Below are positions 26,929-34,745 of a DNA stretch of 38,866 bases, piece by piece. This DNA is from Candidatus Poribacteria bacterium (GTDB lineage Bacteria; Poribacteria; WGA-4E; WGA-3G): assembly GCA_022827885.1 (NCBI GenBank), contig JAJEIP010000072.1:80508-119373 (forward strand). Reading direction: 5' to 3'. A program made the translations under genes and the position numbers. The notes beneath the pieces are model-generated. The model was not told the DNA's origin. It saw only the letters and a list, made by a program, of their open reading frames with translations, and did no database searches. Positions within the stretch are counted from its first letter, which is position 1; each line of letters opens with the position of its first letter.

Positions 26929-27049
26929 CTGTCGGCCATCGGTTTCCGTTAGCAATCAGCAAGGGGGATCCCTTGACAGGACCCTTCTTCACTGATGGTT
27001 TTCGATAGCCAATGTGCTGATAGTCATAAAAAAAGGATTAACAGAATTT
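26929..27049. repeat. Intergenic repeat tract with small hairpin
   Basis: The gap before transketolase carries the words CTGTCGGCCATCGG, AGCAATCAGCA and GTGCTGATAG, akin to the tract at 26035. AAGGG-GGAT-CCCTT (26961-26974) is a short hairpin that could act as a weak terminator of the acidic TPR gene. AAGGA at 27033-27037 is the likely ribosome binding site for the next gene. Confidence 0.4.
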
Positions 27050-28894
27050 GTGGAAACCTTAAAAGAATTTCTCAAACAAAAAGCGACTAACCTACGCATT
27101 CATTCCGTTATCTCCACATCGGAGGCAGGTTCAGGACATCCAACCACGTGTCTCTCGGCTGCGGATCTCGTCTCCGCGCTCTTTTTTCACGCGATGCGTT
27201 ATGATACAACCGATGCTCAGAACCCGAACAACGATAGATTCATCTTGTCCAAAGGACATGCGGCACCCCTACTTTACGCGGCTTATGCGGAAGCGGGGAT
27301 TATCCCAACCGAAAAACTGCGCACGCTGCGACAAATTGATAGTATCTTAGAGGGACATCCGACGCCTCGGTTTGAATGGACAGAGGTCGCAACGGGGTCC
27401 CTTGGACAGGGCTTATCGCTTGGACTCGGCATGGCTCTCAATAGCAAATACTTAGACGACGCTGACTACCGTGTCTATGTCCTCCTCGGCGATGGTGAGA
27501 CTGCCGAAGGTGGGGTCTGGGAGGCGGCTGCTTTAGCATCACACTACAAACTTAACAATTTGATTGGAATTGTGGATGTTAATGCCATTGGACAGAGCCA
27601 GCGGACTATGTACGCCTTCGATATTGATACGTATTGTCAGCGTTTTGAGGCGTTTGGTTGGCAAACCATCGGTATTGATGGTCACGATTTTGATGAAATC
27701 CTTCCCGCACTCGACCGAGCGAAGGTTTCAGACGAGAAACCGACGATGATAGTCGCCAAAACTTTTAAGGGGAAAGGGATTTCGTTCCTTGAAAACGCTG
27801 ACAATTGGCACGGAAAAGCGCTTGCTCAGGGTGAGGAGCTTGATAAGGCTTTAGCCGAACTCGGTCCGTTGCACTCGGGTGTTCCGGTTCGGATTGAAAC
27901 CCCGAATCCTATAAATGGGAGTGCTGATCGTTCAGCCGTAACCGAATGCGAACCGCCTGACTATCCAGCGGACGAAGAAGTCGCAACGCGGAGTGGGTAC
28001 GGGGCAGGACTTGCAAAACTCGGCACCGCGAACCCGAATGTCGTCGCCTTGGATGGAGATACTAAAAATTCCACGTATGCCGAGCAATTTATGGCACTCC
28101 ATCCGAACCGTTATTTTGAGATGTTCATCGCGGAACAGAATTTAGTGGGTGCTGGCATCGGTTTGGCAAAACGTGGGAAGATTCCATTTGTCTCGACGTT
28201 TGCTGCGTTTTTATCACGTGCCTATGATCAAATTCGGATGTCTGCGATCTCACAAGCGAATATTAAATATGCAGGTTCACACTGTGGGGTCTCAATCGGT
28301 GAAGACGGTCCCTCACAGATGGGTTTAGAGGACATCGCGATGTTCCGTGCGATTCCGGGAGCAGCCGTGCTGTATCCAAGCGATGCAGTCGCCGCTGAAC
28401 GGCTCGTCGCAGAAGCAGCGGCTCATGAAGGTATTGTTTACCTCCGCACCTCGCGTCCAAAAACCGCCATTCTTTACGATGTTGATGAGAGTTTCCGAAT
28501 TGGTGGGTGTAAAGTTATTCGGGAAAGCAGGGAAGATAAGGTGACCATTGTTGCTGCAGGTGTTGCGCTTCATGAAGCGTTGGAAGCACACGACATACTC
28601 GCTAAAGAGGCGATCGCTGTCCGAATTATAGATTTGTATTCCGTCAAGCCGGTTGATAAGGATGCGCTACAAAAGGCGGCATCTGAGACGAACAACACCC
28701 TCATCACTGTTGAAGACCATTATCCTGAAGGCGGTCTGGGTGATGCTGTCCTTGATGCTGTGGCAACTGAAGGGATTTGCGTCCACAAACTTGCTGTTAC
28801 AGGAGTGCCGAGGTCCGGGAAACCGGAGGAGCTTTTGGAACATCACGGCATTAGCGCAAATGCTATTGTTCAGCAGGTGAAGCGCGTCGTTTGA
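27050..28894 (+). CDS. tkt: Transketolase
   Basis: The protein has about 614 residues from the GTG at 27050; an in-frame GTG at 27014 would add 12 residues but has no Shine-Dalgarno. It transfers a two-carbon ketol unit in the pentose phosphate and Calvin-type pathways, using thiamine diphosphate and a divalent metal. Landmarks are SEAGSGHPTTCLSAADLVSA near the N-terminus, the cofactor motif GDGETAEGGVWEAAALA leading to IVDVNAIGQSQ, the pyrimidine-domain FVSTFAAFLSRAYDQIR, and GEDGPSQMGLEDIAMFR. The overall length and the GSGHPTTC form resemble the shorter, eukaryote-like transketolases rather than the longer E. coli type. All domains appear complete. It stands alone, without other pentose phosphate genes nearby. 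Confidence 0.93.
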   Translation: METLKEFLKQKATNLRIHSVISTSEAGSGHPTTCLSAADLVSALFFHAMRYDTTDAQNPNNDRFILSKGHAAPLLYAAYAEAGIIPTEKLRTLRQIDSILEGHPTPRFEWTEVATGSLGQGLSLGLGMALNSKYLDDADYRVYVLLGDGETAEGGVWEAAALASHYKLNNLIGIVDVNAIGQSQRTMYAFDIDTYCQRFEAFGWQTIGIDGHDFDEILPALDRAKVSDEKPTMIVAKTFKGKGISFLENADNWHGKALAQGEELDKALAELGPLHSGVPVRIETPNPINGSADRSAVTECEPPDYPADEEVATRSGYGAGLAKLGTANPNVVALDGDTKNSTYAEQFMALHPNRYFEMFIAEQNLVGAGIGLAKRGKIPFVSTFAAFLSRAYDQIRMSAISQANIKYAGSHCGVSIGEDGPSQMGLEDIAMFRAIPGAAVLYPSDAVAAERLVAEAAAHEGIVYLRTSRPKTAILYDVDESFRIGGCKVIRESREDKVTIVAAGVALHEALEAHDILAKEAIAVRIIDLYSVKPVDKDALQKAASETNNTLITVEDHYPEGGLGDAVLDAVATEGICVHKLAVTGVPRSGKPEELLEHHGISANAIVQQVKRVV

Positions 28895-28934: not shown

Positions 28935-29303
28935 ATGAAACAACCTATTGTTTGGATGACTGTCTTGGGTGTTATTCTCCTCGTTGGGATTGGGATGATT
29001 TATGCCTTACGCGTCCCGCAGGCAACCCTTAAAACCTATCCCGCTGATAAGGGACCCAATTTTATTGATGTTACCGCCTATTCACCTAAGATGCAGGAGA
29101 CTTACGAACTTTTTACCCGTAAATGTAGCCGGTGCCATACCGTTGCACGTCCCATTAATTCTACTTTCACGCCAGAAGAATGGCGCAAATATGTCTATAA
29201 GATGATGCGGAAACCGGGTTCAGGGCTTACGCCTAAGACCGCGGAAGAGATCATTAAATTTCTGATCTACGATTCAGAACATCGAAAGAAAAAGACACAA
29301 TGA
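28935..29303 (+). CDS. Membrane-anchored single-haem cytochrome c
   Basis: The protein has 122 residues. A hydrophobic stretch at residues 6-24 (VWMTVLGVILLVGIGMIYA) is an uncleaved anchor or signal. One haem-binding motif is visible, Cys64-Ser-Arg-Cys67-His68, and Met90 or Met91 (KYVYKMMRKPGSG) could be the distal ligand. The remaining sequence is short and helical, as in small periplasmic electron carriers. Its stop overlaps the start of the following thioredoxin-like gene (ATGA at 29300-29303), which implies a common redox function and translational coupling. Confidence 0.88.
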   Translation: MKQPIVWMTVLGVILLVGIGMIYALRVPQATLKTYPADKGPNFIDVTAYSPKMQETYELFTRKCSRCHTVARPINSTFTPEEWRKYVYKMMRKPGSGLTPKTAEEIIKFLIYDSEHRKKKTQ

Positions 29304-30469
29304 TTATTGCAATATTGGCTTCCAAGTTGCGCTCTATAACAGCGTTCGTGATGTTAGTTGTAGGGTTGTCCTGTGCAGTAGGTTTACAGGTAGGGGTGAC
29401 GGAAGAGGAAAATATGAACAAAAAGGATTTTCAGATTTCGATAGATGCCCAACCTGTCACATTTGCCGCGCCTCCTATTCTTAAAGATGATAACTGGTTC
29501 GTGCCTTTGGAGCCTTTTGCCAAGCAGCTTGGCTTAAAGGTCGAGTACCCAGAAGGTGCGAAAATGGTGGTTCTCTGCGGTGGTGTAGCATCGGAAATAT
29601 GTGTGCCCCTCGAATTCCAAGATATTGCCCTACAAGCTTCTATAGGCTTGCACAAGGGTGTCGTTGATATTGGTGGCGTAACGTATGTCCAACCGGCGCG
29701 TGCCGCGGAACCCTTTGGCTTTGAAGTCTACGAAGTATCAGCAAACCGGTTAGAGGTTATTCAACCCATGCATCTTGCTCCCGAATTCACGCTTCCCGAC
29801 CTTGAACGGACCCCAAAACGCTTACGAGATTTCAGAGGGAAAAAGACACTCCTTTATGTTTGGGGATCATGGTGAGGGTGTCGTGAACAACTGCCAGGCT
29901 GGCAGCAGTTTTACGCCAAACACCGCGAGAAATTAAACCTTGTCTCCGTTGCTCTCGATGCGCAAGGCGCATCCGTCGTGCGTCCTTGGCATGATGCCGC
30001 AAACGCTGATTTTGTCACTCTCGTTGATTCACAAAATACATTCGGGAACCGCTATGACCTCAAAGCTATCCCCTACGGTGTTATGGTCGATGAAGCCGGA
30101 CGATTGGTAAAAGCACCGTTCAACATCAATGTTGCAGATCAAAAAACCCTCGCGATGCTTGAAAAGTGGTTGTCGGACCCCGATTATAATGTGAAGTTAC
30201 TCCATGATGTGATGCCTTTAGATGAACGAAACGCTCAGGTTACCACCGAAGCCGCTGCGCGTTTCCAACTTGGTCTGGTCCTATTAGAGGTCGGTAAAAA
30301 GGATGAGGCGATGGCAGAATGGCGGAAGGCTTTGGCATTAGACCCGCAGAACTGGATTATCCGCAAGCAAATTTGGGCAGTGGAACATCCGGACAAATTT
30401 TATGACGGCGGTGTCGATTACAGTTGGCAGAAGGCACAGTTAGAGAAAGAAAAAAGTAAAGGAGAGTAG
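29300..30469 (+). CDS. TlpA/redoxin-like protein, candidate selenoprotein (in-frame TGA as Sec192)
   Basis: The frame runs from ATG 29300 to TAG 30469 with one internal TGA at 29873, giving 389 residues if that codon is read through. Residues 1-32 form a signal or anchor. Residues about 45-155 resemble the copper-amine-oxidase N-terminal (stalk) domain (ISIDAQPVTF, DDNWFVPLEPFAKQLGLKVE). Residues about 158-290 form a TlpA-like thioredoxin fold: APEFTLPDLE, LLYVWGSW, then TGA-Gly-Cys-Arg-Glu-Gln-Leu-Pro, and the cis-Pro loop at P258 (LKAIPYG). The TGA takes the place of the first redox cysteine. Residues about 310-345 form a TPR (FQLGLVLLEVGKKDEAMAEW). Homology resumes seamlessly after the TGA in the same frame, and a hairpin fitting a bacterial SECIS follows. 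The alternative is a nonsense mutation or base-call error in a Cys codon. Confidence 0.82.
29873..29910 (+). promoter_or_regulatory. In-frame TGA and candidate bacterial SECIS hairpin
   Basis: The TGA is at 29873-29875. After 15 bases, CTGCCA (29891-29896) pairs perfectly with TGGCAG (29900-29905) across the loop GGC. An alternative fold pairs AACTGC (29889-29894) with GCAGTT (29905-29910). The apical loop starts with GG and lies 21 bases after the TGA; bacterial SECIS elements need a G at the start of the loop at roughly this distance, as in E. coli fdhF. This supports insertion of selenocysteine. Confidence 0.75.
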
Positions 30470-31265: not shown

Positions 31266-34200
31266 GTGAATACAAGAGAAGGTTATGCGGAACTACAAGC
31301 GAGAATTTCAGGCGCACGGCGGGTCTGGAAACGGAGTCTCTTCTGGACCGGGTTTGCTATTGTTCTGACGGGTGTTATCGCTTTACTTGTCGGAGAAGCC
31401 ATGGTTGATTGGCTGATGCCGCTTCCAAGTGCTATACGCCTCGCTTTATTAATCGTCGGTGCAGGTGTTATCGGTTACCTGTTGTATAAGTATCTCGTTC
31501 AACCGCTTCGAGCATCACTCACGCTCCGTGATGTTGCCCTCAACGTTGAACGAAATCATCCGGATCTCGAGGATAGACTGGTGAGTGCCATCGAATTCGG
31601 AAACCGAGAATCGGCGGATCCGATTGAAGCACACATGCTTCAACGCTTACTTGAGGATACCGTTGAACGCGTAAAAGGCATCAATTTCAAAGCAACGATC
31701 GATCACAGTCAGACCCGTAAACATGTCGGTATTGCGGCTTTGGTTGTTGTTGGTTGTGTTATCCTTTCATTGTTGTTTCCAACAGAAATCCATACGAGCC
31801 TGCTCCGTGTATTGGTCCCTTGGGAGAAAACGGACCCGATTTTAACAACCAGACTCGCTGTGGAGCCGGGAAATGCGCGTATCCTCCGCGGTAAAAGCTT
31901 ACCAATTCATGTCACTGTCACTGGTAAATCAGCTGAAAAGGTCGTCTTGACGTATGGAGATATTGGCGCGCAGCAACGCTCTACATCCGAGGTTGAGAAA
32001 AACCAGCAACAGCCCGAAACTATAATTAACATGCTGCGAAATCCGGACGATAAACGCGGATTTGCATACGAAATTTTCAACATTGATGCTGATATGGAAT
32101 ACTCTGTCGTTGCAAACGAGACGACTTCAGAACGCTACACTGTTGAAGTTTTTGAAATGCCGAAGGTGACTGAAATTTCGGTCGCTTATACCTATCCTGA
32201 CTACACCGGTCTTAAACCTGTTGTGCAAACGGGGACCGGGGATATTCGTGCTGTCGTCGGCACGCAAGCAGCAATAAGGCTTACGACGAACAAAGCGATT
32301 CAAACTGCGTCAATAGCCATCAGTCAAGAGACTGTCAGTCATCAGCAATCTGAGTTGACTGTTGAACCCTATTCCGCCGATAGCCAAATGGTTATTTCTA
32401 ATGGAAATACGCTTACAACCCCTATAGATGTTGTTGAGGATGGAAGCTATGCTATTCAACTGCTCTGTATTGATGGATTCAACAACGAAATACCCATCGA
32501 ATACACGATCAAAGCCATTCCGGATGCTGTTCCAGAGGTCGTTATCAAAGAGCCCGGTCGGGATGTGAAAGTTACGAAGTTAGATGAGGTGGAAGTCGTC
32601 GCTGAAGCAACCGATGACTACGGCATTGGGGAATTAAAACTCATGTATCGCATCGGATCCGATGAATTACGGGAATTTGTGATGGAACCCTCTATTTCCT
32701 CCCCGATTGTAGGATCGGGCTCTGGGGCAGATGCCGGGCACATGGCAGAGGGTGCCTATGCCTTCTATCTGGAGGAGTTTGACGTTGAACCGGGTGATAT
32801 TATCTCCTACTACGCGCATGCGACCGATAATAACACCAACACCGGTCCCGGCGAAGCGAGTAGCGAGATTTACTTCATTGAAATTCGTCCCTTTAATGAG
32901 GATTTCCACGAAGGCGAAAGCGAAGGCGAGCCGGGTGAGGCTGAGCCGAATCCACTTTCGGATATAATTAGTTCGCAGAAGGAGATTATCCGAGAGACAT
33001 CGAAGCATAGTCGGACGAAACCTGCAGCGGTTACCGAGACATATGAGGCTGCAGTCAGGAAAACGGGCGAAAGACAAACCGAGCTAAAGGAGAAGACGCA
33101 GCGCGTTGTAGATGAATTTAGTGCTGCGATGCAAGGGGAATCAGCCGTCACGCCCGAAATTCTGATGAACTTGGAGGACGCAATAGACAGGATGGGTGAG
33201 GCGAGTGATAATCTGAACGCTGTCCGTCCTGATGAAGCGATTCCACCGGAACAGGAAGCACTTGAATTGCTCATAAAGGTTAGTCTTGAAATTCCCAAAA
33301 TACTGATGCAGATGCGGGACAGTAATCCGCAACTCGCTGAGAACCTTGAACTTGAAATGGAGGAGCTGCAGAACGAACTTGAGAATCAGCAGAACGAACT
33401 CGACGCGGAAATGCAGGAGCAGACGCAGGAGATGTTGGATCAGGCGCGTCAAATGTTAGGGGAACAGCAGCAACTGAGTCAACAAAGCCAACAATTAGGG
33501 CGTGAAGATCAACCCTCGCCGAGTGAGATGCAGCAAAACAGTCAACAACAGGAACAGTTGGCGCAACAGGCACAACAGATGGCACAGCAGCTCGATGCCA
33601 TGCAGCAGAACGGACAAGGCACCCAGGGGCAACGCCTAAACCAAGCCGGACAGGCGATGCAACAGGCGGGTGAGCAGATGGAGCAGGCCGCGCAGGGCAT
33701 GCAACAGGAAGAACCGCAATTGAGTGCCGCCAAAGGTGAAAAAGCGGAAGAAAGACTTCAGGAAGCCGTTGAACAGTTGGAAAAGGTTGCTGCGGAATAC
33801 ACGGACGCTGCACTTGATAGAGCCTCTCAGCAACTTCAGGAGTTGACAGAAGCGCAATCTGATGTTCAGCAGCAGACACAAGAACTCAGAGACCGTTCTG
33901 AGCAATCGGAGATGCGTCCTGAAGATTTCCGAAAAGCGTCTGAGCTTGCCAATCAACAGCGTGAACTTCAACGCAATTTGGAGGCACTTGAGCGTTCGCT
34001 GAGAAATATCCAAGAACAGCTCGCTCCAGACAATCCAGAGGCAGCTCAAAGTGTAGCGGATGCGACAAGGCGTCTCGCTGAAGAACAGACTACAGGGGAT
34101 ATGGCGACTGCCCAACGCGCCTTGCAATGGCGTAGTTTCCGAGCCGCTGACCAGAATCAGCAAGATGTCTTAGATGCATTGGAACAGACACAGGGGGATC

Positions 34201-34745
34201 TGCAGCAGGCGCAAGCCAACATGGCGGCTACCGAAGAAGAGCAACTTGAAGCTGCACTGGAACAACTCCAACGAGCGCGAGAACGGATGCAGGACATCCA
34301 ACGCGAACTTCAAGCCATGGAAGGTCAGGAGGAGACGGAGGAGCAACAGCGTCGGCGGGAACAGCTCGCGGAGCAACAGCAGCAAATTCAAGAGCAGATG
34401 CAACGCGCACAAGCGTCGATGCAACGGGAACCGAGTGGGGACCAACCTGGTTCCGATGAACCCGCAGGTCAGGAAGCTCGTGTAGGGGGTAGAGAGTCAA
34501 ACAGGGAGATTGATAGACTCTGGCTCGGTATGCTTGATACAATGGATTATCGACCCGGAAATCGTTCAAGTCCGTTCCCTAACTATGAGTTCGTTATCCG
34601 GGACCTTGGTAAATTGGAATCCGCGCTCGAAGAACGACTTAACACGCTGCAGGAGAAAAAACGGCTCGCTCAGGTCGTAAAGGAAGATGTCCCGCCTGAG
34701 TACCGTAGACTTGTTGATGATTACTACGAGTCTTTGTCGCAATAA
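31266..34745 (+). CDS. DUF4175-like giant membrane protein with Gln-rich coiled coil
   Basis: The protein has 1159 residues. The GTG start has AAGGAGG seven bases before it. There are three membrane segments in the first 180 residues (about 25-44, 52-72, 158-178), then extracytoplasmic immunoglobulin-like beta domains to about residue 560 (VSVAYTYPDYTGLKPVV-type segments with tandem DDYGIGELKLMYRI). Residues about 600-1090 are a very long helical coiled coil rich in Gln, Glu and Met, and the C-terminus is a folded tail (REIDRLWLGMLDTMDYRPGN). This matches the architecture of DUF4175/TIGR02302-type proteins. Function is unknown; such genes often lie near BatA-like and MoxR genes. The low-complexity segment creates long antisense open frames, which are shadows. 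Confidence 0.82.
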   Translation: MNTREGYAELQARISGARRVWKRSLFWTGFAIVLTGVIALLVGEAMVDWLMPLPSAIRLALLIVGAGVIGYLLYKYLVQPLRASLTLRDVALNVERNHPDLEDRLVSAIEFGNRESADPIEAHMLQRLLEDTVERVKGINFKATIDHSQTRKHVGIAALVVVGCVILSLLFPTEIHTSLLRVLVPWEKTDPILTTRLAVEPGNARILRGKSLPIHVTVTGKSAEKVVLTYGDIGAQQRSTSEVEKNQQQPETIINMLRNPDDKRGFAYEIFNIDADMEYSVVANETTSERYTVEVFEMPKVTEISVAYTYPDYTGLKPVVQTGTGDIRAVVGTQAAIRLTTNKAIQTASIAISQETVSHQQSELTVEPYSADSQMVISNGNTLTTPIDVVEDGSYAIQLLCIDGFNNEIPIEYTIKAIPDAVPEVVIKEPGRDVKVTKLDEVEVVAEATDDYGIGELKLMYRIGSDELREFVMEPSISSPIVGSGSGADAGHMAEGAYAFYLEEFDVEPGDIISYYAHATDNNTNTGPGEASSEIYFIEIRPFNEDFHEGESEGEPGEAEPNPLSDIISSQKEIIRETSKHSRTKPAAVTETYEAAVRKTGERQTELKEKTQRVVDEFSAAMQGESAVTPEILMNLEDAIDRMGEASDNLNAVRPDEAIPPEQEALELLIKVSLEIPKILMQMRDSNPQLAENLELEMEELQNELENQQNELDAEMQEQTQEMLDQARQMLGEQQQLSQQSQQLGREDQPSPSEMQQNSQQQEQLAQQAQQMAQQLDAMQQNGQGTQGQRLNQAGQAMQQAGEQMEQAAQGMQQEEPQLSAAKGEKAEERLQEAVEQLEKVAAEYTDAALDRASQQLQELTEAQSDVQQQTQELRDRSEQSEMRPEDFRKASELANQQRELQRNLEALERSLRNIQEQLAPDNPEAAQSVADATRRLAEEQTTGDMATAQRALQWRSFRAADQNQQDVLDALEQTQGDLQQAQANMAATEEEQLEAALEQLQRARERMQDIQRELQAMEGQEETEEQQRRREQLAEQQQQIQEQMQRAQASMQREPSGDQPGSDEPAGQEARVGGRESNREIDRLWLGMLDTMDYRPGNRSSPFPNYEFVIRDLGKLESALEERLNTLQEKKRLAQVVKEDVPPEYRRLVDDYYESLSQ

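Follow-up and report, generated by a model that had tools for sequence, protein, structure and literature searches.

An in-frame TGA in a thioredoxin-like gene

Does the TGA codon that interrupts a thioredoxin-like gene of a genome from the sponge-associated phylum Poribacteria (Candidatus) end one protein, or does it encode selenocysteine (Sec, U) within a longer one? We addressed this question in a stretch of 38,866 nucleotides (hereafter the window) from a genome of 5.1 Mb that was 96.7% complete and whose near relatives by sequence were Poribacteria MAGs. The open reading frame at 29300–29875 closes at the TGA, and the same frame then continues through 197 sense codons to a TAG stop at 30467–30469; the predicted in-frame TGA in a TlpA-like thioredoxin gene was thus borne out at base level. 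The features of the locus are as follows.

27014–28894, + strand: transketolase gene, a conserved upstream neighbour in family f1 (domain search, locus comparison)
28935–29303, + strand: cytochrome c-like gene with a single-haem CxxCH motif (CSRCH), sharing an ATGA overlap with the candidate selenoprotein gene (domain search, locus comparison)
29300–30469, + strand: candidate selenoprotein gene, 389 residues with TGA read as Sec at residue 192 (frame, domain matches, orthologues)
29576–29602, + strand: N-terminal domain codons for Cys93 (29576–29578) and Cys101 (29600–29602), present in 33/33 poribacterial sequences
29873–29875, + strand: in-frame TGA (U192), at the first active-site Cys position of the redoxin domain (TGA in 50/50 distinct poribacterial sequences; aligned CxxC paralogues)
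29879–29881, + strand: codon for Cys194, second redox residue of U-G-C (invariant in 33 aligned sequences)
29891–29905, + strand: putative SECIS apical stem-loop, 6 bp with a GGC loop, CUGCCA-GGC-UGGCAG (folding, covariation)

With TGA translated as U, the product reads LLYVWGSWUGCREQLPGW around the site. It consists, in order, of a signal-like N terminus, a Cu_amine_oxidN1-like domain (residues 48–149; 31.3 bits against a cut-off of 24.2), a TlpA/ResA-type thioredoxin domain (AhpC-TSA at residues 159–270, the top Pfam match, 55.8 bits against a cut-off of 26) and a TPR-like C terminus with a single repeat at 318–351 (26.4 bits, slightly below the cut-off of 27). These matches agree with the copper-amine-oxidase-like, thioredoxin and TPR make-up originally proposed, the TPR falling marginally under its cut-off.

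Conservation of the TGA

With a profile built on an initial eight orthologues, 60 of 85 Poribacteria genomes gave a match at E ≤ 1e-20. In every genome whose match spanned the site (59/59) there was exactly one in-frame TGA, and none had Cys there (0/59); the sixtieth match, in G039, is a fragment whose contig ends before the site. The site was read directly in 50 of the 59. Orthologues holding the TGA ranged from 29% to 84% identity and included those of five single-contig genomes (G047, G080, G082, G083 and G084), so retention of the codon in related genomes, one of the checks proposed for this locus, was confirmed. Pairwise dN/dS was mostly 0.13–0.26 before the TGA and 0.07–0.27 after it, so both sides are under purifying selection and the part downstream of the TGA is functional protein.

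Searches for a Cys orthologue at E 1e-20 to 1e-25 turned up none, either in 85 poribacterial and 95 other-phylum genomes or in 387 genomes including about 300 sampled domain-wide. The Cys-bearing matches that we read (L105, L119–L123, L125 and L126) were CxxC proteins. It had been supposed that a Cys normally stands at the TGA position: this is true of the TlpA/ResA CxxC paralogues, and direct orthologues always have TGA.

The residue following the TGA is Gly, or Ala in several genus g4 members and in L083 and L093. The motif reads WGSWUGC in the window, WASWUGC in distant poribacterial members and WGSWUAC in several members of genus g4. The change from U-G-C to U-A-C was seen in L074, L075, L076, L078, L079, L083 and L093, with Sec and Cys constant. 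In the G035 orthologue (L085, G035:C1:4107-5181) the TGA is followed by two overlapping frames, probably reflecting one frameshift, either real or from assembly.

A SECIS-like hairpin and the Sec machinery

A perfect 6-bp hairpin with a GGC loop, predicted to begin 15 bases beyond the TGA, was recovered at 29891–29905; its loop begins 21 nt past the TGA. The published bacterial SECIS model allows a loop of 3–9 nt with a G among its two leading nucleotides, a stem of 4–16 bp, a UGA-to-loop distance of 16–37 nt and MFE ≤ -7.5 (PMC13188914). The GGC loop, 6-bp stem and 21-nt spacing of the window hairpin lie within these limits. The 69-nt region reaches the energy limit in 50/50 sequences, and the 15-nt hairpin alone, at -4.4 to -7.3 kcal/mol, falls slightly short of -7.5.

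The stem paired in all 50 distinct sequences through silent changes: the Leu and Gln codons were CTG with CAG in 47 and TTG with CAA in three (L082, L084 and L086, each from a different family), with zero mismatched combinations. Elsewhere the same genes use CTG for 14% of their Leu and CAG for 41% of their Gln residues, and synonymous codon redraws kept the first five pairs in about 25% of draws, against the observed 50/50. Among 25 sequences the outer pair was CG in 22 and UA in three without a break, and the covariation score was reached by 0/500 shuffles, a count not usable as a probability because the sequences are related. The innermost pair was absent in 7/25 sequences. A 67-nt fold of the window sequence gave z = -2.36, with 4/200 shuffles folding equally well. 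A matching apical hairpin, its loop carrying G at position one or two, was present in the other-phylum relatives. The extended lower stem of the window's minimum-energy fold was rejected as a general feature, being absent from some orthologues. An Rfam scan of the window returned nothing at gathering scores.

The Sec machinery, whose presence in the same genome had been put forward as a check, was complete: selA (on contig C33), selB, selD and tRNA-Sec(UCA) are all encoded, the tRNA gene (selC; anticodon TCA) directly following selB. The selD gene also contains an in-frame TGA (CAGUASK; L072 near 3014, G000:C144), so SelD is probably itself a selenoprotein, an independent sign of UGA recoding in this genome. 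Phylum-wide, selB was found in 55/56 good genomes and selA in 53/56; G004, the sole good genome lacking selB, also lacked selA and the UGC selenoprotein gene.

These results bear on two simpler accounts of the TGA. If it were a true stop, the locus would hold a 191-residue N-terminal protein followed by a separate gene or decayed remnant. ORF calling with genetic code table 11 does give two ORFs (29300–29875 and 29978–30469), and TGA does serve this genome as a normal stop, ending 12 of 29 window genes. Such a stop would, however, cut a single thioredoxin fold at its active site, and it would have to persist in 59 genomes of several families under purifying selection on both sides, beside a silently covarying hairpin and in a genome with Sec machinery; we consider it very unlikely. 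More improbable still is an artefact of sequencing or assembly, or a nonsense mutation that arose recently in a single genome: nothing was found in its favour, and the same TGA stands in orthologues of 29–84% identity, those of the five single-contig genomes among them. Two further candidates were rejected: reassignment of TGA in the genetic code, since TGA ends those 12 window genes, including the overlapping cytochrome gene, and a pseudogene, given the conservation of the TGA in 59 genomes and the selection on both sides. From comparative sequence evidence, the gene almost certainly encodes a selenoprotein.

Fold and redox residues

An AlphaFold2 model (mean pLDDT 79.9) placed U192 between strand 182–189 and helix 193–208 of a thioredoxin fold. 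ResA structures were among the best Foldseek matches, the first by Z scoring 18.0 (rmsd 2.1 Å over 133 residues; PDB 1st9). When the sequence was aligned to CxxC proteins encoded in the same genome, U192 fell opposite their first Cys, with a one-residue gap ahead of the second. The protein thus has U-G-C, one residue shorter, in place of the CxxC of ResA/TlpA oxidoreductases. ResA of Bacillus subtilis (PDB 1st9) is like the window protein in fold and active-site position; unlike it, ResA has no fused N-terminal domain or TPR.

Across 33 poribacterial sequences, down to 29% identity, the only columns that were always Cys or Sec were 93, 101, 192 and 194. In the model, Cys93 closes strand 89–93 and Cys101 opens strand 101–106 of the N-terminal domain, and they could plausibly form a disulfide or relay pair. 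The 25 other-phylum loci that we read (L127–L151) share U-G-C with the window protein, and 23 of them also have the N-terminal pair (L135 is incomplete and L151 lacks both). L117 and L151, both of the other phylum, lack the two cysteines together, and this joint loss is consistent with their acting as a pair. Judged from sequence conservation, the N-terminal pair is a possible, still tentative, redox partner of the Sec-Cys centre.

A diverged member of a known family

Proteins of this type have been named 'UGC-containing TlpA disulfide reductase family protein' (PMC13188914), 'UGC-containing Prx-like protein' (PMC9312934) and, in the GOS survey, 'Prx-like (UGC-containing)' (PMC2398784). As described there, they carry UGC in an AhpC-TSA/TlpA-type domain, and the window protein likewise combines TlpA/ResA matches (NCBIfam models, fold) with U192-G193-C194. 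The suggestion that its U-G-C arrangement would fit related redoxins therefore proved sound, UGC being a described family feature (PMC13188914, PMC2398784; NF041054). Nearly all selenoproteins are reported to have Cys counterparts (PMC13188914), and in the GOS survey Cys homologues of the UGC type (855) far outnumbered Sec forms (46) (PMC2398784); in contrast, we saw no Cys orthologue in two phyla. The sections of these papers that describe the class make no mention of Poribacteria or of a fused N-terminal domain, and a literature search returned nothing matching Poribacteria together with selenoprotein, nor 'WAxxUGC', and two papers that pair Poribacteria with selenocysteine.

The nearest curated model was NCBIfam NF041054.1 (WAxxUGC_long, 'ResA-like WAxxUGC motif-containing protein'). 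It shares with the window protein the W[AG]SWUGCR motif with TGA-coded Sec, the domain order, the N-terminal Cys pair and the apical hairpin (CUGCC...UGGCAG). The window protein scored 151.3 bits, below the 300-bit cut-off, which 0/85 poribacterial genomes passed. In the other phylum (that of G168), 13/95 genomes passed it and 46/95 had a TGA-bearing protein of the UGC type; redoxin-domain identity between the other-phylum members and the window protein was about 35%. In a FastTree of redoxin domains, 76 UGC proteins, NF041054 members included, grouped as a clade (support 0.98) to the exclusion of nine CxxC proteins, and the other-phylum group (support 1.0) was nested among poribacterial proteins in this single quick tree, whose rooting is uncertain. 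Because of the NF041054 match, the tree grouping and the published UGC classes, we assign the window protein to an already known kind of enzyme, of which it represents a diverged, apparently exported poribacterial subfamily.

Other TlpA-like proteins with a TGA were noted. A second putative poribacterial selenoprotein (L106:2212-3666, G015:C19; 485 aa, with TPRs) has WASWUAGC, a UxxC motif, and a further Cys pair (YVCEDINGVC) in its C-terminal domain. In another phylum, L118 (G115:C245:6220-6639) has TGA at the first Cys of a CxxC motif (WATWUPSC).

Export, genomic neighbourhood and activity

Poribacterial N termini are hydrophobic and signal-like (helix 2–28 in the model; in genus g4, ends resembling 'LYAS' or 'LQAAP'), so export is likely, and on this sequence character the product is probably periplasmic. 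By comparison, the other-phylum L128, L130 and L132 are too short upstream for a signal peptide.

The overlap with a cytochrome c gene noted in the original prediction is real, an ATGA shared with 28935–29303. In the family f1 loci that we read, transketolase lies upstream and the CSRCH cytochrome c gene overlaps in the same way; L082 (f3) has a similar cytochrome gene nearby without overlap. No such neighbour was seen in the other, more distant poribacterial clades among the loci compared, so the cytochrome cannot be the general substrate. The f1 neighbourhood hints at a role with c-type cytochromes; cytochrome c maturation in particular is doubtful. Downstream, at 31266–34745, the window encodes a 1159-aa protein with weak DUF4175 similarity, a neighbour that recurs on this side of the selenoprotein gene in genus g1.

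The closest folds and the NCBIfam models are ResA/TlpA/StoA/CcmG-type disulfide reductases, and thiol-disulfide oxidoreductase activity is likely. Its main rival is a selenium-dependent peroxidase (Prx/GPx-like), in which Sec192 would attack peroxides and Cys194 would resolve the product. Sec suits peroxide chemistry, the top Pfam match is AhpC-TSA, and the UGC type has been termed Prx-like (PMC2398784). We nevertheless think a peroxidase unlikely, as the nearest folds and models are those of disulfide reductases and the Sec occupies the TlpA CxxC site with a Cys after it. As a special case of oxidoreductase activity, the enzyme might be a ResA/CcmG-like reductase that serves the apo form of the overlapping cytochrome c alone. 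ResA is a reductant of apocytochrome c; it is also the top fold match here, and the ATGA overlap with the CSRCH protein recurs in family f1. Against such dedication, the gene is kept in clades without the cytochrome neighbour, and some other-phylum relatives have open frames that cannot accommodate a signal peptide; we rate it as improbable as the peroxidase.

Taken as a whole, the locus is very probably best explained by a Sec-decoded TGA in a TlpA/ResA-type oxidoreductase with a U-G-C centre. SelB and tRNA-Sec(UCA) would decode the UGA at 29873–29875 under the direction of the in-frame hairpin (29891–29905). In the predicted fold, Sec192 would sit where the first helix of the thioredoxin fold starts, with Cys194 as its partner. 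Its selenolate would attack a substrate disulfide or oxidised thiol, and Cys194 would resolve the mixed bond to give a selenenylsulfide, with which the Cys93/Cys101 pair, to go by its conservation, may exchange electrons. In family f1, the CxxCH of apocytochrome c could be one natural substrate. A bolder reading, in which Sec is irreplaceable by Cys and the in-chain C93/C101 partner makes the protein a self-contained two-domain relay, exported and cytochrome-coupled in Poribacteria, is speculative and on balance unlikely.

The new points are these. Poribacteria have a distinct subfamily of this enzyme, apparently exported, whose gene often shows translational coupling to that of a cytochrome c; the searches of two phyla turned up no Cys version; and two N-terminal cysteines are among the four invariant Cys/Sec positions. 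That pair offers a concrete hypothesis for how the UGC centre may be reduced. About 105 genomes in the two phyla keep Sec, and among them we saw no UGC-type Cys version, which makes the family well suited to studying why an enzyme should require selenium. Since standard gene calling cuts these genes at the active site, annotation of Poribacteria needs to allow for TGA as Sec.
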